A stretch of 55,257 nucleotides of DNA from a virus. Positions 9,240 to 41,903 of this stretch are shown here, piece after piece. The notes beneath the pieces were generated by a model. The model saw only the letters and a list, made by a program, of their open reading frames with translations, was not told where the DNA came from and made no database searches. Position numbers and translations under genes: made by a program. The stretch lies in the IMG/VR virus record IMGVR_UViG_3300050821_001740, positions 1-55,257 of that record; one strand, given 5' to 3'. Position 1 is the stretch's first letter; every line of letters starts with the position of its first letter.

Positions 9240-9860
9240 TCACGCGGCTTTGACATGCTTGGCACTCCTGGCGATCGAGAGAAGAAGGTCGCGGAAGGCG
9301 ACCGGCGTCGCGTTCCTGATCTTGGTCTTGTCCTTGCCGCCGACCATCGCGACGACACCGATGCGGCGGGCCTTCTCGTAGCCGTAGCGCTCGATCATCC
9401 ACTCGGGGATGCGCTGAGGCGCCGGCCCCCAAATCAATTCGGGAAGCTCAACGCGGGATGCGAGCAACCACGTCGGCTTGCGCGACATGTGGCCGTAGTG
9501 GCCCTGCTCGACGTGGCAGGTCCACCAGTGATTGCGCTGAACCCAACCGCCAGCGCGCGGCGGCGGCTCAATCCCGAAGTGCTCCCATGCGTGGCTGTGC
9601 GCAGGGTGCTCGATCACGCCGCCGAAATCGCGGACGACGCGTAGCGCTTCTGAGAAGCATCCGCCGTCGTCGCCCTTCTGGTACTGGTGTGGCTTTCGTG
9701 TCGAGCCATGCCAGAAGCGGCCCCAGCGTTGACAGGGCGGGTGCGCGACAACGGGATGCGGACCCCAGTAACGGCGAGCGTCGCGCGCTTCGTCCCACGG
9801 ATCGACATCGGGCAAGCCGCAGTACACGCCGCCGGTCTCGACATAGAGCGCGGCGATCAT
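9240..9860 (-). CDS. Cytosine-C5 DNA methylase-like protein
   Basis: 206 residues. VVAHPPCQRWGRF (about 39-51) matches motif IV (PCQ) of C5-cytosine methyltransferases and GGVIEHPAHSHAWEHFG resembles motif VI (ENP, here EHP). The usual N-terminal SAM motif I is not obvious and the protein is short, so activity is uncertain. Similar short proteins are common in phages. The start overlaps the resolvase-like stop (ATGA). Confidence 0.65.
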   Translation of the reverse strand: MIAALYVETGGVYCGLPDVDPWDEARDARRYWGPHPVVAHPPCQRWGRFWHGSTRKPHQYQKGDDGGCFSEALRVVRDFGGVIEHPAHSHAWEHFGIEPPPRAGGWVQRNHWWTCHVEQGHYGHMSRKPTWLLASRVELPELIWGPAPQRIPEWMIERYGYEKARRIGVVAMVGGKDKTKIRNATPVAFRDLLLSIARSAKHVKAA

Positions 9861-10540
9861 CGCTTCGCCTTCTTCTTCCTGCGCCGCGGCTTGGGCGCCG
9901 GCTTCGGCCCGCTGCCGCGCTCGGGCCACGGCTCCCACCGCAGCTTGCCCTTGCTGTCCGGGTTGCCCATCGCCCAGCGCCAGACCGTGACGTAGCTGAT
10001 CGGTCGCTTGATGAAGGCGGTCGCGCGCATCGCGACTTCATCCTTGGTCTTCGAGATCAGCCACGCCTGCCGGCACAGCTCAATCTCATCGGCGTTGAAG
10101 GACTTGCCGCGCCCGCCCGTCGCCTTCTTCAGCTTCTTGGCATCGTTCATCGCCTGGATGACCTTGCGCGACTGCTCGCGTCGCGCCAGGCGCATCGCCT
10201 CGATCAGCGGCGCGATGCTGTCGGTCGGCTTGATGTCGAGCTTGTGCGCCATCACCTTGACCGTGAGCCCGGCCTTGGCGATGGCCTGCAGCTTGGCGCC
10301 GATAGCCGCCTCGCTCTTGCCGAGCAGAGACAGGTCGTAGACGTAGACCGTATCGCCACGGCCGCTGTTTTTGATCAGCTTGTCCAGCCACTCGCCAGCA
10401 TGTTGCCGATCGACGTAGACCCGGTGGTTGCCGAACTCGCTGGACATCTCGGCCGGCTTGAAGCCGTGCTCCAGGCCCGCGGCGATCTGCTTCGGCATTG
10501 GAACGGCCGACTTGGCGTTCAGGAGGTAAATTCGGTCCAT
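9857..10540 (-). CDS. Resolvase-like protein with missing catalytic arginines
   Basis: 227 residues. Residues 1-100 follow the serine-resolvase fold (IYLLNAKSAVPMPKQIAAGL, then VYVYDLSLLGKSEAAI), but the usual YxRVS and DRLGRS arginines are absent, so recombination is unlikely. The C-terminal part (around 176-194) is HTH-like with an RPISYVTVWRW segment, and the tail is Lys/Arg-rich. It is the first gene of the leftward cassette and starts 31 bases from a promoter within a 9-bp inverted repeat. A role as DNA-binding regulator of the divergent cassettes is inferred. Confidence 0.7.
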   Translation of the reverse strand: MDRIYLLNAKSAVPMPKQIAAGLEHGFKPAEMSSEFGNHRVYVDRQHAGEWLDKLIKNSGRGDTVYVYDLSLLGKSEAAIGAKLQAIAKAGLTVKVMAHKLDIKPTDSIAPLIEAMRLARREQSRKVIQAMNDAKKLKKATGGRGKSFNADEIELCRQAWLISKTKDEVAMRATAFIKRPISYVTVWRWAMGNPDSKGKLRWEPWPERGSGPKPAPKPRRRKKKAKR

Positions 10541-12674: not shown

Positions 12675-13421
12675 ATGGCCGAAGAATCCGCGATCTCCTG
12701 GACCGACGCCACATTCAATCCATGGATCGGCTGCACCAAGGTGAGCCCGGCGTGTGACCACTGCTATGCAGAGCGCGACAATGGTCGCCGTGGCTGGGTA
12801 GATGGCTGGGGCGTGGGCGTGCCGCGGCGTCGCACGAAGACGTGGGGCGATCCGGTGAAGTGGAACCGCAAGGCGGCCGAGACCGGCTACCGGCCGCGCG
12901 TGTTCTGCGCATCACTCGCCGACGTGTTCGACAACGAGGTCGACCAAGCGTGGCGCGATGATCTGTGGAAGCTGGTCGCGGAGACGCCGCTACTGCGCTG
13001 GATCTTGTTGACCAAGCGCATCGGCAACGTCGACCACATGGTGCCGAAAGCCTGGATCGAGGCGTGGCCAGCGCACGTCGGCCTGATGGCGACGATCGCG
13101 ACTCAGGCTGAATGGGACCGCGATTTCTGGAAGCTGGAGATGTGGCAGGGGCACGTCCCGTGGATCGGCGTCTCGGCCGAGCCGTTGCTGGGCCACATCG
13201 ACATCGGCGACGCCAAGCCGGACTGGATCATCACGGGTGGCGAGAGTGGCGCCGGCTTCCGGCCGCTCGACATGGACGCCGTGCGCTCGCTACGCGACCA
13301 GTGCGCGCGCAATGGCGTCGCTTTCCACCACAAGCAGAATGGCGGGGTCCGCGGCAAGGACGCCGGATGCTTGATCGACGGCGTGGAGCACAAATTCTTC
13401 CCGCCAGCGCTTGCCGCATAA
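12675..13421 (+). CDS. Phage Gp37/Gp68 family protein (radical-SAM-like Cys motif)
   Basis: 248 residues. The N-terminus TDATFNPWIGCTKVSPACDHCYAE carries C20, C27 and C30, the conserved Cys motif of the Gp37/Gp68 (DUF5131) family, which is distantly related to radical-SAM enzymes. Later family blocks are visible: VFCASLADVFD, LLTKRIGN, WIGVSAEPLLG, WIITGGESG, and a C-terminal FHHKQNGG. The substrate is unknown. It is the largest gene of this cassette and is flanked by the AAACGCC motif on both sides. Confidence 0.88.
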   Translation: MAEESAISWTDATFNPWIGCTKVSPACDHCYAERDNGRRGWVDGWGVGVPRRRTKTWGDPVKWNRKAAETGYRPRVFCASLADVFDNEVDQAWRDDLWKLVAETPLLRWILLTKRIGNVDHMVPKAWIEAWPAHVGLMATIATQAEWDRDFWKLEMWQGHVPWIGVSAEPLLGHIDIGDAKPDWIITGGESGAGFRPLDMDAVRSLRDQCARNGVAFHHKQNGGVRGKDAGCLIDGVEHKFFPPALAA

Positions 13422-15802: not shown

Positions 15803-16846
15803 CTAAGTAACCTGGCCTCCAGTTTGCGGAAAGCCTGGCGGCATGTGCCCCCAGGATCCCGGCATGACACCAGCCCCTAGTTGACCGCCCGTCTCGATGA
15901 CGCCGTTGTTGCGCGCCGCCGCCGTGAACGCGATCACGTTGGCCGCCGTCCACGTTGCCCCCAACTCGATCACCGCGCAATCGGCTTCGAAGATCGCGGC
16001 ATAATACCCGCAATAACCCTGGAAAGTCACGGCGAACGGGGATGCCCCGAGATTGGTGTCATAGACCACCTGGCTTTCGGTGCTCGCGTCGATGTGGTTC
16101 TGGCCACCAGCCGCGAACACAACTGTCGCATTCGTCTGCGTACCTGTGGGTAGACCGTTGGCCAAGGTGACGGACTGCGTGGAACCGGACCCACTGACGC
16201 TGCCGACGACAGCATAGACGTTGCAGTTCGGGCCACCCATCACCATGCCGGGCAGGATTTGGCTACTGCATCCATTGATCGTGATCGTGCGTTGCCCCGC
16301 GGTGAAGCTCGCAGTCCCTTGGACCCACGGCTTCGTTACCGTGTACCCCGCGCCGAAACGCACGGTCGCCGCGCCGCCGAGCGTGGTCAGATCGTTGTTC
16401 GGGTTGGCATTAACACCAAATACGATGCCTGGCCCGAACGACAGTTGTCCGGCGCCGACCGACACTGTGTCATTGAGGAAGCTCGGCTGTGCCAACGTGA
16501 GGTTTTGAAGCAGGGCGTTGCCATAGCCAGCAAGGCCAAACGCGTAGCTACTCCCGACGCTCGATCCCTCCAGTGTGAGCCCGGCACTGTTACAGCCATC
16601 AATGATCTCAAATCCTCCACCGATAAGCTGGCTGCTCAGAAACGTGCCCGCGAGCGACAGAGTCGGAGAACTCAGGATCGGCGCATAGGTAACCGCGAAG
16701 CCAGCCGTGTTGAGGTTGGCCAGCGCGTAGGCACGGGCGCCGTTGATGGTCGCGAAGGGAGCGGCCAGCGTACCGGTGCCGGTCGAGTCCGAACCGCCGA
16801 CCGCGAAATACAGCGTGAGCGGGGCCGTTAAATTGGTTAAAGACAT
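15803..16846 (-). CDS. Tail spike / fibre protein, beta-helix-like
   Basis: 347 residues, rich in Gly, Ser, Thr, Asn and Val. It begins LYFAVGGSDSTGTGTLAAPF, the common start of parallel beta-helix tail-spike and pectate-lyase-like repeats (GSDSxxGTxxxPFxTI). Repeating short strands continue throughout. Probable receptor binding or polysaccharide-degrading tail component. It directly follows another fibre gene (3-base gap) and precedes the lysis genes. Confidence 0.75.
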   Translation of the reverse strand: MSLTNLTAPLTLYFAVGGSDSTGTGTLAAPFATINGARAYALANLNTAGFAVTYAPILSSPTLSLAGTFLSSQLIGGGFEIIDGCNSAGLTLEGSSVGSSYAFGLAGYGNALLQNLTLAQPSFLNDTVSVGAGQLSFGPGIVFGVNANPNNDLTTLGGAATVRFGAGYTVTKPWVQGTASFTAGQRTITINGCSSQILPGMVMGGPNCNVYAVVGSVSGSGSTQSVTLANGLPTGTQTNATVVFAAGGQNHIDASTESQVVYDTNLGASPFAVTFQGYCGYYAAIFEADCAVIELGATWTAANVIAFTAAARNNGVIETGGQLGAGVMPGSWGHMPPGFPQTGGQVT

Positions 16847-18085: not shown

Positions 18086-18102
18086 CGGTCCATCTCAGGG
18101 AT

Positions 18103-18122
18103 GCGGCGTCTCACGACGCGGC
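18103..18122 (-). promoter_or_regulatory. GUGA-capped leader hairpin upstream of tail fibre
   Basis: On the minus strand GCCGCGTC-GTGA-GACGCCGC: five base pairs closing a GUGA (GNRA) tetraloop, then a C-C mismatch and two more pairs. It ends 17 bases before the fibre ATG and is followed by ATCCC and then GGAC. The same architecture occurs before the decoration and coat genes with different stem bases. Confidence 0.7.
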
Positions 18123-18131
18123 GGAATTCGG

Positions 18132-19451
18132 TTACTCGAGCGTCAAGGCGTATCCTGCTTTGCGCATAGCGGGGAGGGCCTTCTCGACCTTCTCGCCGCC
18201 ATCATTGCGATAGATCATGTTCGGAAAGCGGATCTGGTCGATAGTGCCATAGACGCGCTTGCGAGCCGCTGCGATCGTCTTTCCGAGACCGGTGACGACC
18301 ATCACATATTCTCCCGCAGTCTGGAACTGCGCGGCTTCGACAACCTTATCGTCCTTCATCACGGGACCGCGGCCCATCATCACGCCGCAGCAATGCACGT
18401 CATCATACACGTTCTCCAGCCCCTGGATCGGATGACCGTCCACCATGTCTGGAGTCGAGCAATTATAGGGGAAGCGCGGTTGCCCGATGACGACAGCCAT
18501 GCAGACATCTTGCGAGACCTTGAGCGTGTCGCGACCGTTGAGCAAGTCGACCATCCACTGTGCGGGGTCGCCACGGTGGGAAGCCATCTGGCCAAATAGC
18601 GCGGGATAGCCGCAGCGGGCGGTCGCCTCCAGGGGATATGCCTTGCCCTTCTTGTCGATCATCGCGCCGATGCAGAAGTCGCCGACATGTCCTGTTGCGG
18701 CGAGCGCTCCGGCCATGGGCGTGAGCAGTTCGTTGACTGCCTTATCGGTCTCGACGTACTTCGACACGCTGACCATCTCTCCCGTATTGGGACCGATATC
18801 TCCGGGCATGAGCGGTTTATGTTCGAACGAAATTTGGAACTTCTCTGGGAGGAAACCTTCAGGACCGAACCAACCGTTGACGCCGATCTCGAAATCCGCG
18901 TCAATCTTCTCCTGCAACATGCATCTACCACGCAGTTTTGTGCCGCGGCGAATTTTCGCTTCTATCCAGCCAACCATCTCGGCTGGTGAGCACGACACAA
19001 AAGTCAATGCTTTGTCATCCTCATCGCCGAGGGTCTTGAACACGAAGCACTTATCATTCTTGCGAGCAAACTTCGCCGCGCTCTGTAAATCATCGAAGAC
19101 TTCGTATGGCAGCAAATCAATCCCAGCCGCTTCCATCGCTTTCATTCCGGCGCCGCGGTCGATCTCAAGCCGTGCGCTCGAAACCGTCGGGCTGAAAATC
19201 TTGAAGCCATGTGCGCGGTACTGATCGAGTTCGTAGACGTAGCGGAAATTTCCGGTATTGAGGATCAGGCCGTCTTTGGCTCGTTGCATGTACGGGCGCC
19301 AGTCGTCTATAATCGTGAATCCCTTGAACCCCTGTCCTTCGCGAGAGGGGGTCTTGTGGTAGCGGAACCAAAAGACCTCATGCCCGGCTGCCGCGCATCG
19401 AATTGCGAAGTCGAGTCCAAGGCACTCAGGGTCAATTATTAGGACGACCAT
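18132..19451 (-). CDS. ATP-grasp ligase, PurD-like
   Basis: 439 residues. N-terminal Rossmann-like part (VVLIIDPECLGLDFAIRCAA), then an ATP-grasp core: FKTLGDEDDKALTFV (nucleotide loop and strand), EIGVNGWFGPEG, NTGEMVSVSKY, and PLEATARCGYPALFGQ, which corresponds to the LExNxRxGDPE metal site of GAR synthetase. Such enzymes join a carboxylate to an amine using ATP. The substrate is unknown. It sits between tail and fibre genes, so a metabolic or virion-modifying role is possible. It starts two bases from a divergent HNH gene. Confidence 0.75.
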   Translation of the reverse strand: MVVLIIDPECLGLDFAIRCAAAGHEVFWFRYHKTPSREGQGFKGFTIIDDWRPYMQRAKDGLILNTGNFRYVYELDQYRAHGFKIFSPTVSSARLEIDRGAGMKAMEAAGIDLLPYEVFDDLQSAAKFARKNDKCFVFKTLGDEDDKALTFVSCSPAEMVGWIEAKIRRGTKLRGRCMLQEKIDADFEIGVNGWFGPEGFLPEKFQISFEHKPLMPGDIGPNTGEMVSVSKYVETDKAVNELLTPMAGALAATGHVGDFCIGAMIDKKGKAYPLEATARCGYPALFGQMASHRGDPAQWMVDLLNGRDTLKVSQDVCMAVVIGQPRFPYNCSTPDMVDGHPIQGLENVYDDVHCCGVMMGRGPVMKDDKVVEAAQFQTAGEYVMVVTGLGKTIAAARKRVYGTIDQIRFPNMIYRNDGGEKVEKALPAMRKAGYALTLE

Positions 19452-32078: not shown

Positions 32079-33485
32079 TTACGCGCCCGCGATCAGGCCG
32101 TGGCCCACGAGCGCCGCGCGGATGGCGTTGGTCAAGAGAACATCCTGCTGGTTGGCCAGCGACACGGTCTGCATGAAGCAGTTGCCGGCATCCGGGATGG
32201 CCTGCTGGAAGTTGCCGATCAGGTAGGTCTCGGTCGGCGGCGTGACCTGGGCCGTGCTCACGTTGACGTAATTGACCGCGATCACGTTGGCCGCCGACAC
32301 GCGCACGCCGCAGATGCCGATGTTGTTGGTGAAGGACGGCTTGTTGATCCAGATCGCGCTCGACGCCACGACACCGGTCACCGTATAGCCGACTTCCGAC
32401 GTCGTCTGCGAGGCGATGGCTGACGGCGTTAGGGTCGCGCTGTACACGACCAGTGGCGCCGCGGGAGCCGGTCGGAACAGGCGGATGCCGTAGTTCTCGC
32501 TGGCGATCGGCGTGATGGTGCTCGCCGTGGTGTTGACGTAGCCGATGCCCAGGACGTTGGCCGCCGAGACGTAGGCTTGCGCGATGGCAAGGCCGGCCTG
32601 AGACGACGGCTTGGTGACGCCGGTCACGAAATCCGTGGTGGCGAGGCCCGTCAAGGTGAGGGCCGACACAGTCCCGGCGGTGCTCAGCACGCCCGCGACG
32701 GTGCCGATGTTGGCCTGGATCATGATGTCGGGCGAGTTGGCGTCGAGGCCGCCCAGCGACCAGATCGTATAGGCTTCGGCGGTCGGCGTGATCGGCGTCG
32801 TGGTCACGCTGCAGTTGTGATACGTGATGCCCAGCGTGTTGGCCGACACGACGCGCGTGCCGACGACATTGAGCCCGCTCTGATAGGTCGGCTTCATGAC
32901 CTGCACGAGCTCGCCCGCGCGCAGGCCCGGCACGGTGAACTGCTGTTCGGCGATCGACTGCGATGCCACGGCGACAGGCGTGATGACCTGCGTGACGGAC
33001 TGGATGCCGCGCAGGGCGACGAAGCCGTACTTCTCGGCTGCGGTCGGCGTGATCGTGGTCGTCGACATGTTCGAGAACTGAACGGCCGCGGCGTTGGACC
33101 CCGACACGCGCACGTTGCCGACGATCAGACCCGCCTGCGACGACGGCTTGTTGACGTACAGCAAGTCGCCCGAGATGATCGGCACACTCGCCGTGGCGCC
33201 GATGACCGTCATTGAGACCTCGCTCGAGGTCTGCGAGGCGATGTTGCCCGGCGTCTGCGTGCTCGCGAACGTCATCGCGACACCCGACGCCTGGCCGCGG
33301 ATCAGGGTCGCCTGAGCATTGCCGGTGAACTGCGTCGAGACGACTCCGAAGAAGCCGACCTTGTCGTTGGCCGTGCCGCCGACCGCGCCACCGGCGGCAA
33401 GACCGAGGGTCGTGCCCTGGTCGTTGCCGTCCGAAAGCTGGCGGGCCTGGTTGGAAGTGGACTGAACGGTGCCTGCAACGGGCAT
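32079..33485 (-). CDS. Repeat-built decoration-like virion protein
   Basis: 468 residues. After a 95-residue N-terminal domain, four modules of about 80 residues recur, each with IASQTxSE, a strand region with NKPSxQAGL, RVSAANVxxxxYVN and then ITPxxxExYG. The modules look like beta sandwiches. It lies between the coat gene and an intrinsic terminator and has the same GUGA hairpin leader, so high expression is expected. A capsid decoration or head fibre is the best guess. Confidence 0.65.
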   Translation of the reverse strand: MPVAGTVQSTSNQARQLSDGNDQGTTLGLAAGGAVGGTANDKVGFFGVVSTQFTGNAQATLIRGQASGVAMTFASTQTPGNIASQTSSEVSMTVIGATASVPIISGDLLYVNKPSSQAGLIVGNVRVSGSNAAAVQFSNMSTTTITPTAAEKYGFVALRGIQSVTQVITPVAVASQSIAEQQFTVPGLRAGELVQVMKPTYQSGLNVVGTRVVSANTLGITYHNCSVTTTPITPTAEAYTIWSLGGLDANSPDIMIQANIGTVAGVLSTAGTVSALTLTGLATTDFVTGVTKPSSQAGLAIAQAYVSAANVLGIGYVNTTASTITPIASENYGIRLFRPAPAAPLVVYSATLTPSAIASQTTSEVGYTVTGVVASSAIWINKPSFTNNIGICGVRVSAANVIAVNYVNVSTAQVTPPTETYLIGNFQQAIPDAGNCFMQTVSLANQQDVLLTNAIRAALVGHGLIAGA

Positions 33486-33507
33486 GGTAATTGTCCTTCT
33501 ATGGGAG

Positions 33508-33527
33508 GCGCTGTCTCACGACAGTGC
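33508..33527 (-). promoter_or_regulatory. GUGA-capped leader hairpin upstream of decoration gene
   Basis: On the minus strand GCACTGTC-GTGA-GACAGCGC: five pairs, an A-C mismatch, two pairs, as in the other two copies but with different stem bases. It is followed by CTCCCATAGAAGGACA and the ATG 22 bases downstream of the stem. The AGAAGGACA is shared with the coat leader. Confidence 0.7.
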
Positions 33528-35821: not shown

Positions 35822-35843
35822 CTGGGCTGTCCTTCTGTGGGAT

Positions 35844-35863
35844 GCGGCGCTTCACAGCGCGGC
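35844..35863 (-). promoter_or_regulatory. GUGA-capped leader hairpin upstream of coat gene
   Basis: On the minus strand GCCGCGCT-GTGA-AGCGCCGC: five pairs, a C-C mismatch, two pairs. It is followed by ATCCCACAGAAGGACA and the coat ATG. The loop TGA also serves as the stop of the short open frame that follows the scaffold gene. Confidence 0.75.
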
Positions 35864-36049
35864 GTCTGGGGTGGTAATCGCTCCGTCAATCGCGACGTGC
35901 GAGCCTTGCCCAAGGGCTATGACGGGCGGTGTCGTGTTCCTAGTAAATTTGTTTGATGTGCCACATGCGCCACTCGCGGCATTGGGCGTTGGGACGAAGC
36001 CGACGGAGGGCGAAAATCCATCCGCCTTGAACAGATCGATAAAATCGGA
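35852..36049 (-). other. Start-less open frame continuing the scaffold frame
   Basis: Directly after the scaffold TGA, the same frame stays open for 65 sense codons and ends at the TGA inside the coat leader hairpin. It contains no ATG, GTG or TTG. The translated product is protein-like (FSPSVGFVPTPNAASG, TPPVIALGQGSHVAIDG). Options are stop-codon readthrough adding a tail to some scaffold molecules, a rare start such as CTG, or a remnant. A separate 34-codon ATG frame also overlaps. Otherwise the region is the coat leader. Confidence 0.45.
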
Positions 36050-38108: not shown

Positions 38109-38563
38109 TACCCTCTCACTCCTGCGATAGCTGGGGCCTGTGACACGTTGCTGTTCATCGGCGGCATCGGCTGGCCCTGGCTCATGCCGCTCATCAACAT
38201 CTGGAGAAGCTGGGCGCGCGTCGCCGGGTCCATCTGCGCGAGCATCGCCATCATGTTCTGGCCCTGCGGCGCGCCACCCTGCATGGCCATGGGAGCGGCA
38301 GCGGGCGGCATCATGGTCCGGTTCTGCACGGGCGTCGGCGTGAACGGCGCCATCGGGACACCGTTTTGTTGCGGCGGCATGGGCATCTGGTACGCGCTCA
38401 TGGGGCCCGGCGACGGGCCGCCCATCATCGACATCAGGGCCGCGAATGCCTGCGGGTTCTGTGCGAGCGGTGCGCCGCCCTGGCCTTGCGTGCCTTGCGA
38501 GCTCAAGAGGGCGAGGAGGGAGGCGAGGCTCGACGTCGTGCCGGTGTCGCTACTTCCCGCCAT
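38108..38563 (-). CDS. Low-complexity Met/Pro/Gln-rich protein
   Basis: 151 residues. Ser/Leu/Gly start, then long Met, Pro, Gln and Ala runs (NRTMMPPAAAPMAMQGGAP, LLQMLMSGMSQGQPMPPMN). Probably flexible, perhaps a portal-associated or assembly protein. Overlaps the portal stop by 14 bases. A 51-bp part is duplicated at 37526-37576. Confidence 0.5.
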   Translation of the reverse strand: MAGSSDTGTTSSLASLLALLSSQGTQGQGGAPLAQNPQAFAALMSMMGGPSPGPMSAYQMPMPPQQNGVPMAPFTPTPVQNRTMMPPAAAPMAMQGGAPQGQNMMAMLAQMDPATRAQLLQMLMSGMSQGQPMPPMNSNVSQAPAIAGVRG

Positions 38564-41500
38564 GCGCTGGCTCCTTCGGCTCTTCCTTTGGTTCCATCGC
38601 CATCATCATCGTGTGCAGCCCCTTGGCGAAGGTCGCGAACTTGTCGACCGGATCAGCCTCGCTGGCGTCTGCCTTCTGCATGATCGCAAGCACCTTGGCC
38701 TCGAAGTCCTTGTTGATCTTGTCGGTCATCACCGCGCGATCGGCAGTCTTGTCGTTGACCGCCACCATCAGTTTCTGGCGCTCCTGCATGAGCGCTTGGA
38801 TCTGCTGATCCTTCGCCGAGAGAAGCGCCTGGACCTGAGGCGGGATATCCTTGACGTCCGGCGACAACAGGTTCGGCGGCACAGCCTTCGCGAGTCGCGT
38901 CGCGAATTCCTCGGCGCCCGGCCAATCCATGTTCTTGGCGATCAGGTCAGCCACCAGCGTCGCGGTCTGCGGCATCGCCTTGGCGAACGCCATCATGTTC
39001 TCGGCCGCCTCGATCCGCTTGGTCGCGTAGGTTGGGCCGATCGTCACCGTGACGCCGTACTGGCCGTACTTCGGATTGTAGATCTTCTGCACGCCGCCTT
39101 GCGGCTTCTCCGGTGTCGGACCCTGGCGCATCTTGGCAAACGGCTGCGGCGCGTTCGGGTCGATCTTGACGCGCTCCTCGCTGTCGTCCTCGCGCAAGAT
39201 CGTGGCGAGCCGCGGCGTGTCGTAGATATGCGGGATCAGGTCCACGAAGATATCGCCCGTCGTGCGCAGCGAGCGGCCGAGGTTGTCGACGAAATGGAAC
39301 GAGCCCAAGTCGTTGTGCTGGCGGTGCTCGCGAATCGCACGGCCACTTTCGTCGATCAGACGTTCATTCATCGTGGCGTTGAAGACGTCGCGCACGCCGG
39401 TCGTCGCCATCAAGTCCTGCGAAGCCAGCGCGGCCTCGCTGTTCGTGGCGGCGGGCGCACCGGCAAACGGCTGGCGCTGCGGCGGCGGCGCGGGCTTTCC
39501 CGCGATCGTCTCGGGCTTGTAGAGCAACACCGGATAATTCTTGGTGTTCGCCTGACGCCACTCGGCCTCATGGCCCTCGACCTGACCCTCGGCCATGATC
39601 CACGGCGCCTTGGGCTGCAGCGACGTGATTTCGACCCCGAGCGTGTTGTGGGTCGGCACCATCGACCAGCCGGCCAAGAAGAGATGCGACGGCGAGTCGA
39701 TCGCAACGCACTTGACCGGGACCGACGGCACTCGCTCAACCGACTTGATTGCATGGCGTTTCGTGCGGCGACGGTGCTCGACGCGAGGCTTGTCCAGTCG
39801 CTCCCGCTTGCGAGTCAGCCGGAATACGCCATCACCTGCGTAAGCGGAGAACGTGAGCATAGTGGACGACGAGCATTCGTAAGTTCCGCCGTTCGGGAAC
39901 TTCCGCATGTACGCCGCTTTGCGCACAACGTTCGCACGAATTCCAAGCGAGCTAATTAGCTCCTGAAACCCCTCGACCAGCCGCTCATTCGTGTTCACGA
40001 ACGCGCAGGCGTTGCCGTTGCCGATCGTCCCGTCCGTGTCCATCAAACCTTGGAGCAACGCGCGACGCTGACTCTCGGAAGCCCGCAGGTATTGCGCAGG
40101 GATGTGCTTATTGTTGAACACGCCCAACGCCACCAGCTTGGTGCGCAGCCCCGGGATTGAGAACCGCGGCGCCCTCCCGCTGCTTCTACGCGCCTGCCCG
40201 ACGATGTACCCAAGCTCAGCGATGTTGGCGCGCATCTCCTCGATGTCGTGCTCACCGGACGTGATCTCACCGGAGACCGCCGTGCCATCGCCGAGCCAGG
40301 CACCGAGAAGATACGGATGCACCGGCAACTCGGCTTCGGGCAAGTCCAACGGCTGCGCGATCTCAATATAGTGCTTCTTCGGCGTCAGGTCGGCCGTCTT
40401 GACTACCTTATCGGACCAAGACCAGTTGCTTGGGATGCGCTTGCCACGTTCTTGGACCATCCAAGGATGCTCGGCGTCCGCAACGATCGACGTGCCGTCC
40501 GAGAACGTGACCCGGTAACAATCGCGATGCAGGTGGACCGGGCTAACGCCGATGATGGTGGTTGGCTTGCCTTTGTCGTCGAGCAACTGGTCGCCAACTT
40601 TGGCGTCGCGCATCGTGGTCCAGCCTGTCGGCGTGGGGAGAGGCGTGTCCAAGCTGACGGGGCGAAAGAAATTGTACATCAACTGGGCTTGCTTGGCATT
40701 GCGGATGATGCCGCTCAGCTTCTGCTTGCCCTCGACGTTGATCTCCTCGCCGATCACCTTGACGACCGGCAGAAACTTGCCCGGCCAGTCGCGCATCGAC
40801 AGAATCTCGACCGCCGTCATCTTGTACCAGGTGATCTTGCGCTCCATGCTCTCGCGAACACGGATGATATTCACCTGACCATCGGAGATGAGCTTCTTGG
40901 TCTCCTGGCCAAGCTCATCCTCCCAGCCGACATGACCGTTGTCCAAGCCGACCAGCGTGCGCGACTCGCTGCTGACCTCGAAATACTCGGCGACGCGGAT
41001 CGCATCCTTCTCGACCCAATTCTTGATCGGCTCGCCGATGCCGCTCGAGGCCCAATTGATGGTCTGCGCGTCAGGCCACTCGTCCTCGAATTCGTCGCGC
41101 GGGATCATCTCGCTGACGAAGACGAACTTGCCGTCGGCGCCCGTCGGGTCCTGGCAATCGGGATCCCAGTAGACCGTGAACGGATTGGCGATGCGCTTGA
41201 CCCGGATGACCTGGTCGAAGCTGTCGGCCCCCTCGTACTCCGTCGTCACGCGCCACGCGCCGAGACCGCAGCTCACGGCGGTGAAGAACGCCGTGTCATA
41301 GGCGATGTCCGCCACGCTGTCACGCTCGATGGCGCGGATGAGGCCGCCATACATGCGCGCGACTTCGGGATCGCCGCGGTCGCCGACGGGGCTGATCGTG
41401 ATTCCCGGCCGGTTCTGCCGCTGATCGTTCGTGATCTGGTGCACGAAGGTCGGCAGCTTGTTGATGGTCAGGCACGGGCGCTTGTCGAAATTGCGCTGCG

Positions 41501-41903
41501 CCGCGACATCGGCCGGCCACTGGCCCTCACCGGTCAGGAACTTCAGATCGTCGAGCGCGGCCTTGCGGTTTTCGGTCTCGGCCTTGAGCGACTTGTCGAA
41601 GCGCTTGCGGGCGCGCGCCAGGATCTTGTCGGCTTCGAATGCGTCGAGTTCGTCGACCCGCTCCGGCGTCGGATCGTAGGCGAGTTGATCCGTGATGTTG
41701 TCTACGGAGGCCGACAGCGCCGGCTCGCCCGCGTTCATGTCGGGGTTGCGCTTGCGCCGACGCGGCTGGTCGGCAGGATCTTCGCCCTTTGCACCCTTGC
41801 CGCCCTTGCTCAGCGAGGTCGGGGCGACCTTGAGCATCGCGCTGTCTACGCGCGGGAGTTTGATTCGGCCATCATCCTTGGGGGCATCGGGCGACTGTGC
41901 CAA
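38550..41903 (-). CDS. P22-like portal protein interrupted by an intein
   Basis: The precursor has 1117 residues; removal of the 337-residue intein leaves a portal of 780 residues (P22 gp1 is 725). The N-extein has LAYDPTPERVDELD and GEGQWPADVAAQRNFDKRP, then WDPDCQDPTGADGKFVF; the C-extein resumes LGVEITSLQPKAPWI and ends with a long helical barrel part (IQALMQERQKLM). The portal forms the dodecamer for DNA entry. Starts with TTG and follows the upstream stop immediately. Confidence 0.92.
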   Translation of the reverse strand: MAQSPDAPKDDGRIKLPRVDSAMLKVAPTSLSKGGKGAKGEDPADQPRRRKRNPDMNAGEPALSASVDNITDQLAYDPTPERVDELDAFEADKILARARKRFDKSLKAETENRKAALDDLKFLTGEGQWPADVAAQRNFDKRPCLTINKLPTFVHQITNDQRQNRPGITISPVGDRGDPEVARMYGGLIRAIERDSVADIAYDTAFFTAVSCGLGAWRVTTEYEGADSFDQVIRVKRIANPFTVYWDPDCQDPTGADGKFVFVSEMIPRDEFEDEWPDAQTINWASSGIGEPIKNWVEKDAIRVAEYFEVSSESRTLVGLDNGHVGWEDELGQETKKLISDGQVNIIRVRESMERKITWYKMTAVEILSMRDWPGKFLPVVKVIGEEINVEGKQKLSGIIRNAKQAQLMYNFFRPVSLDTPLPTPTGWTTMRDAKVGDQLLDDKGKPTTIIGVSPVHLHRDCYRVTFSDGTSIVADAEHPWMVQERGKRIPSNWSWSDKVVKTADLTPKKHYIEIAQPLDLPEAELPVHPYLLGAWLGDGTAVSGEITSGEHDIEEMRANIAELGYIVGQARRSSGRAPRFSIPGLRTKLVALGVFNNKHIPAQYLRASESQRRALLQGLMDTDGTIGNGNACAFVNTNERLVEGFQELISSLGIRANVVRKAAYMRKFPNGGTYECSSSTMLTFSAYAGDGVFRLTRKRERLDKPRVEHRRRTKRHAIKSVERVPSVPVKCVAIDSPSHLFLAGWSMVPTHNTLGVEITSLQPKAPWIMAEGQVEGHEAEWRQANTKNYPVLLYKPETIAGKPAPPPQRQPFAGAPAATNSEAALASQDLMATTGVRDVFNATMNERLIDESGRAIREHRQHNDLGSFHFVDNLGRSLRTTGDIFVDLIPHIYDTPRLATILREDDSEERVKIDPNAPQPFAKMRQGPTPEKPQGGVQKIYNPKYGQYGVTVTIGPTYATKRIEAAENMMAFAKAMPQTATLVADLIAKNMDWPGAEEFATRLAKAVPPNLLSPDVKDIPPQVQALLSAKDQQIQALMQERQKLMVAVNDKTADRAVMTDKINKDFEAKVLAIMQKADASEADPVDKFATFAKGLHTMMMAMEPKEEPKEPAHGGK
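39645..40655 (-). mobile_element. Intein with LAGLIDADG homing endonuclease in the portal gene
   Basis: 337 residues (precursor 417-753). Starts with Ser (SLDTPLPTPTGW, block A), block B has DGTSIVADAEHPWMV, and the two LAGLIDADG dodecapeptides are LLGAWLGDGTA and LLQGLMDTDGTI with Asp. It ends CVAIDSPSHLFLAGW (block F) and MVPTHN with the +1 residue Thr (block G), so splicing should be by the Ser1/His-Asn/Thr+1 route. The insertion is in the conserved helix just before the QPKAPW segment. Confidence 0.93.

Follow-up and report, generated by a model that had tools for sequence, protein, structure and literature searches.

The locus analysed here raises the question of why hairpins of one architecture stand directly upstream of three separate genes in the virion region of a single virus, and at which level of gene expression they might act. 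The control of phage virion genes is known mostly from promoters and terminators. The stretch of DNA under study (the window) is a virus record of 55,257 bases with a G+C content of 63%, whose virion genes lie on the minus strand. On a slight balance of probability, and judging from sequence patterns, the hairpins would all represent a single composite RNA leader that acts in cis to set translation initiation at virion genes. Read 5' to 3', this leader comprises an optional hairpin (H1), a second hairpin (H2), the motif UCCC, a variable WYA spacer, the motif GAHGGA and the start codon. H2 consists of two base pairs, an A.C or C.C mismatch, five further base pairs and a GNRA or GNRA+1 loop, the WYA spacer is replaceable by an extra hairpin, and the start codon lies approximately 22-25 unpaired nucleotides past H2.

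The original prediction placed three such hairpins in the window, and all of them are present on the minus strand (Table 1). They lie 17-22 nt upstream of the start codons of the tail-fibre ORF, the 468-aa ORF and the P22-like coat gene, and each is followed by [A/C]TCCC and a GAAGGA or GATGGA Shine-Dalgarno sequence. In dinucleotide-shuffled windows, a looser class of hairpin (any GNRA loop, 5 bp, an A.C or C.C mismatch and 2 bp), counted irrespective of place and downstream box, arose by chance 0.75 times on average and three times at most. A hairpin-only covariance model (R1), the training set of which included the window sequences, yielded three matches in the window at 29.5-31.9 bits, all else scoring no more than 14.8 bits. 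Because R1 had contained window sequences, a second covariance model (R2), which comprises the hairpin and the downstream box, was trained on 36 sequences, all of them from other phages. This independent model recovered exactly the three sites (51.2, 49.9 and 47.9 bits; E 2.1e-11 to 1.4e-10), the next best window match having 10.5 bits (E 0.47). Of the gene labels initially attached to the leaders, tail fibre (phrog_863) and coat (phrog_283, PF11651) held, whereas profile searches of the 468-aa ORF, which had been called decoration-like, returned only a weak match to phrog_4342. The downstream sequence is indeed shared, but its extent had been misjudged: a wider UCCC-NNN-GAHGGA box is present in all three copies, rather than AGAAGGACA in two.

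Table 1. Leader elements and the genes that follow them in the window.
Feature	Position	Strand	Details
H2 hairpin before tail-fibre ORF	18103..18122	(-)	GC-C-GCGTC-GTGA-GACGC-C-GC, C.C mismatch; R1 31.9 bits
Box of tail-fibre leader, including Shine-Dalgarno	18088..18102	(-)	AUCCC-UGA-GAUGGA-C; R2 match 18088-18122, E 2.1e-11
Tail-fibre-like ORF, 411 aa	16850..18085	(-)	phrog_863 E 1.3e-24, phrog_6202, PF21722
H2 hairpin before 468-aa ORF	33508..33527	(-)	GC-A-CTGTC-GTGA-GACAG-C-GC, A.C mismatch; R1 29.5 bits
Box of 468-aa ORF leader, including Shine-Dalgarno	33493..33507	(-)	CUCCC-AUA-GAAGGA-C; R2 match 33493-33527, E 1.4e-10
468-aa ORF, putative virion-region gene	32079..33485	(-)	weak phrog_4342 (unknown function) match only
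H2 hairpin before coat gene	35844..35863	(-)	GC-C-GCGCT-GTGA-AGCGC-C-GC, C.C mismatch; R1 30.4 bits
Box of coat leader, including Shine-Dalgarno	35829..35843	(-)	AUCCC-ACA-GAAGGA-C; R2 match 35829-35863, E 4.6e-11
P22-like major head (coat) protein, 394 aa	34637..35821	(-)	phrog_283 E 9.3e-77; PF11651 E 7.6e-42
H1 hairpin of coat leader	35902..35918	(-)	AGCC-C-UUGG-G-CAA-GGCU; 42 nt (from end of CAA) upstream of H2

A failure to find the element again in related phages had been set beforehand as a refutation; further copies were found in coat-related contigs and throughout IMG/VR. Among 80 viral contigs with related coat genes, taken by protein and irrespective of any hairpin, six (L009, L022, L024, L028, L031 and L071) carry the hairpin directly before the coat Shine-Dalgarno sequence and a seventh (L077) carries a variant hairpin at the coat gene. 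Searched as an exact pattern, the commonest stems match at least 118 IMG/VR stretches; by a rough estimate, chance would account for only a few matches to such a 35-bit pattern. Most of the matches listed then carry UCCC, GATGGAG or GAAGGA, and a start codon. Strong matches were obtained in 40 of 42 motif-bearing records and in none of 20 large motif-negative coat relatives. Because whole motif-bearing records hold one to five copies and no match in the 20 motif-negative relatives exceeds 22 bits, the element is close to all-or-none by phage lineage. A short blastn search of the leader against 50,697 named phages gave no convincing match, its sensitivity being limited by the short query and the low-complexity filter, and six named phages whose coat or portal genes are related, covered over their entire records, likewise yielded no real match, the top score being 14.4 bits. 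In another lineage with the same coat family, a different conserved hairpin (GTCGCTCCGNGNGCGGGGCGCNC) lies directly before the coat Shine-Dalgarno sequence (L004, L017, L043, L045, L052 and L072).

The claim that covariation reflects selection for RNA structure is well supported for H2 by comparison of these sequences. Compensatory double changes occur at six of the seven pairs, both outer ones included, when 35-36 distinct copies are aligned, the outer two pairs being GC/GC, AC/GT, GG/CC, CC/GG, CT/AG, TT/AA or TG/CA, and the covariation far exceeds that in shuffled and slid controls. The copies in these alignments were partly selected for pairing, and a cleaner test is retrieval with a pattern that leaves the 5' arm free and specifies no more than GTGA, the CGC terminus of the 3' arm and the box. 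The full 5-bp stem was present in 20 of the 21 distinct sites retrieved in this way, the sole exception looking like a chance match, and seven of the eight previously unseen stems were perfectly paired. Near-invariant features are the GNRA(+1) loop, the A.C or C.C mismatch (with few exceptions) and the third G-C pair. The loop is mostly GUGA and otherwise GCGA, GAGA, GGAA, GGGA or a pentaloop of the form GNRA+N. H2 bears some resemblance to a GUGA hairpin of 16S rRNA, which seems to lack the mismatch and the outer pairs. The compensatory changes of H2 and constant place relative to the gene are those of a cis-regulatory structured RNA in general.

The box after H2 was missed by the original prediction in its full form, UCCC-WYA-GAH-GGA, with the Shine-Dalgarno sequence inside it. 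UCC and GGA are separated by 7 nt in 47 of 68 leaders and by 6-8 nt in 67 of them, UCC lies 0-4 nt from H2, and in 69 of 104 leaders the start codon follows the end of H2 by 22-25 nt. The A of GAHGGA is found in 88 of 99 leaders, compared with 30% of control Shine-Dalgarno sequences, and the GA before H-GGA is conserved far above the level seen in the other Shine-Dalgarno sequences of the same phages; in strength, the Shine-Dalgarno sequences of leader genes do not surpass those of other genes. UCC may pair with the Shine-Dalgarno GGA, which would make the box a small switchable stem with letters too conserved for a covariation test; predicted pairing of GGA with the linker is 0.62, versus 0.45 in shuffled linkers. 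A fourth pair extending UCC/GGA found no support (21 of 68 leaders versus 21.5 in shuffled ones), and neither did the idea of H2 as a simple Shine-Dalgarno insulator, predicted accessibility being 0.278 for native leaders and 0.291 with H2 shuffled. Translational coupling was discarded as a general rule, since the distance from the upstream stop to H2 ranges from overlap to several hundred nucleotides; the preceding open frame ends at least 120 nt from the leader in 26 of 99 cases and within 30 nt in 43 of 99.

About a quarter of the leaders contain H1, a second covarying hairpin (stem-C-YUNG-G-CAA-stem') that had also been overlooked and that usually lies 5-10 nt upstream of H2, counted from the end of CAA. 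Stems of at least 4 bp were formed at 20 of 25 loop-defined sites, whereas shuffled partners gave a mean of 2.6 (maximum 9). Moreover, most over-long linkers hold an additional hairpin, unrelated in sequence, or a further H2 between UCCC and GAHGGA, and in most linkers with an inserted hairpin 22-29 unpaired nucleotides are left, which is near the usual 22-25. Such variable insertion would be expected if the linker were the apical part of a weak UCC/GGA stem.

Nearly every identifiable gene downstream of the element is a virion gene, and the phages have no capsid family in common. The head-protein families concerned are phrog_10, 283, 212, 1357, 9953 and 334; when downstream ORFs were clustered, 22 fell into one HK97-type head-protein cluster and 20 into a P22-like coat cluster, and other leaders precede scaffolds, portals, maturation proteases, tail sheaths, and head-tail or minor tail proteins. 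Among the 16 larger motif-bearing phages, no gene family is present in all; the best occurs in eight of the 16 and also in motif-negative phages. A common phage-encoded partner is unlikely because of this result, which comes from a gene-content comparison that would miss a small or fast-evolving phage-encoded partner. In one contig (L024), two leader copies (9370-9389 and 9959-9978) flank an endonuclease VII-like ORF that lies shortly before the coat gene; the arrangement looks like the insertion of a mobile gene together with a duplicate of the leader.

As to the hosts, one copy pair is located in a prophage within a 151-kb contig of a Dongia MAG (Alphaproteobacteria, Rhodospirillales). The prophage carries integrase, portal, terminase and capsid genes, and chromosomal genes, ELM1 and AcrB among them, lie on its flanks. 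At E<=1e-4, R2 matched seven of 385 alphaproteobacterial genomes, one match standing before a tail gene together with H1; four of the seven (L300, L301, L304 and L305) precede short ORFs with no PHROG match and from a fifth (L306) no hairpin was recovered, so that chance matches may be among these. In an even draw from the whole phylum, the Dongia genome was the only match among 399, and none was found among 199 genomes of another phylum. It is therefore likely that many of these phages, the window's own host aside, have an alphaproteobacterial host range, and several or most element-bearing phages probably infect Alphaproteobacteria. A role as a general host signal was rejected, the exact 25-nt pattern being rare: it occurs in one of the 385 alphaproteobacterial genomes (in the Dongia prophage) and at four places in 84,980 species genomes. 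R1 matches within genomes of Dongia's order are mostly chance hairpins that lack the box; in two of them (L269 and L272), a GNRA hairpin with no UCCC box precedes the Shine-Dalgarno sequence of the same host gene (MT[TK]PLIGLTLDV...).

That the element is an RNA structure, keeps a fixed position with respect to the start codon and has a box enclosing the Shine-Dalgarno sequence points to control of translation initiation, and conservation of the loop, the mismatch and UCCC suggests recognition rather than mere stability. In particular, H2 and UCCC, which border the ribosome's landing site on its 5' side, would offer a docking site to a trans-acting partner, and this partner would raise or time the translation of virion genes. 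Activation or timing is favoured because a purely repressive host factor would presumably not persist in so many phages. CsrA/RsmA is a conceivable partner in that GAHGGA fits its ANGGA site, although the GGA here lies outside the H2 loop; it was rejected because PF02599 is absent from 15 phage records and three host MAGs, in a search whose control was positive in three of 14 known genomes. Since CsrA is absent and no gene family occurs in all 16 phages, the partner is more likely to be host-encoded, either an RNA-binding protein or the ribosome itself, than phage-encoded. A wider proposal, possible and offered tentatively, is that H1-H2-UCCC-GAHGGA is a portable module which, having spread between unrelated alphaproteobacterial phages, serves them as a shared code for virion-gene translation, the reader being a host factor or the ribosome; if so, unrelated phages would share one late post-transcriptional regulon.

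An alternative that we regard as unlikely is a passive 5' stabiliser, in which the hairpin blocks 5'-end-dependent decay after a transcription start or an endonucleolytic cleavage in late polycistronic mRNA. Virion genes require abundant stable mRNA, H2 is predicted to be formed (mean pair probability 95%), tandem hairpins exist, and the corresponding position in many motif-negative coat relatives is occupied by unrelated hairpins of other kinds (mean z -0.8 versus -0.35 for other genes), as a generic stabiliser predicts. Known stabilisers of this kind, such as ompA-type hairpins and the T7 gene 10 leader, are likewise stable hairpins just upstream of the Shine-Dalgarno sequence of highly expressed genes. 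However, stabilisation would not depend on conservation of the GNRA loop, the mismatch, the third G-C pair or UCCC, or on a fixed distance to the start codon, and no common promoter-like or cleavage-like sequence was found upstream of the leaders, where only H1 is enriched. The conserved loop, mismatch, box and spacing also differ from the known stabilisers in being common to unrelated genes, apparently via convergence or transfer. Of the roles suggested at first, the regular spacing to the start codon and the box conserved about the Shine-Dalgarno sequence favour control of translation over plain 5'-end stabilisation; activation, repression and stability would each be compatible with these data.

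It is improbable that the element is a translational operator on which a phage or host protein, bound to H2 and the box, represses virion translation until late infection. RNA-phage coat and T4 RegA proteins repress translation at their targets in this way, and the MS2 coat operator and the RegA targets are similar in being small hairpins with an unpaired or mismatched base near a phage ribosome-binding site. The mismatch and loop of H2 resemble a protein site, and the box holds a Shine-Dalgarno sequence that could be closed by the UCC/GGA pairing described above. In contrast to those targets, the element has a GNRA loop, lies upstream of the start codon rather than over it, and precedes genes for many unrelated proteins in unrelated phages, its binder being only putative. 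The variety of downstream products excludes autogenous control by one product as a general rule; an autogenous coat operator of the MS2 type was rejected because the element precedes at least six major head families as well as genes for scaffold, portal, protease and tail proteins. The lack of a gene common to the phages and, in the 15 phages and three host genomes searched, of CsrA, the site of which resembles the box, also argues against this possibility.

A boxB-like antitermination site for an N-like arginine-rich protein is highly improbable. The 5-bp stem and GNRA or GNRA+1 loop resemble, at the level of sequence, boxB in the nut sites of lambda and P22, which likewise lies in a phage mRNA leader, and the boxB pentaloop adopts a GNRA fold (PMC12550061). 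The extra pentaloop base follows GNRA here, whereas it is looped out inside GNRA in P22 boxB, and boxB differs further from the element, which has the A/C.C mismatch, two further pairs, a box of UCCC and Shine-Dalgarno sequence, and a constant distance to each start codon. Placement before individual virion genes, repeated per gene and not once near a promoter, together with the lack of a common phage gene, departs from a single nut site in an early operon. Finally, a DNA-level operator or recombination linker with an incidental hairpin, although it would suit the position at module boundaries of mosaic genomes, deserves hardly any credence, as compensatory changes in the arms spare the mismatch, the asymmetric GNRA loop and the strand-specific UCCC/GAHGGA box, all of which lie on the coding strand before the start codon.

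The composite leader would act like known phage leader elements and is a member of none of those tested, boxB being closest in shape and failing on context. Rfam 15 gave no gathering-score match in the window and none at E<=1 in five loci with the element, and the open-access literature searched contains no description of it. One RNA element that is absent from Rfam stands before the most heavily expressed genes of phages with neither a common capsid family nor a gene detected in all of them. It predicts a common partner in Alphaproteobacteria, provides a strong marker for annotating virion genes and their starts in uncultured phages, and could be a ready-made expression leader.

Several other features of the window were observed. 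The portal ORF (38550-41903, minus strand, 1117 aa) contains a P22 portal domain (PF16510, best stretch residues 99-415) split by an insert in which a LAGLIDADG domain and matches to PHROG terminase/primase families occupy the same stretch; from these matches, the portal protein most likely contains an intein. A 439-aa ORF (18132-19451, minus strand) that lies upstream of the tail fibre carries a phosphoribosylglycinamide synthetase C-terminal domain (PF02843), an odd enzyme for a virion region. A 24-nt repeat with 96% identity (15925-15948 and 32273-32296, minus strand) is present in two virion-region ORFs, and an ORF on the plus strand (12675-13421) encodes DUF5131 (PF07505, E 6e-61).
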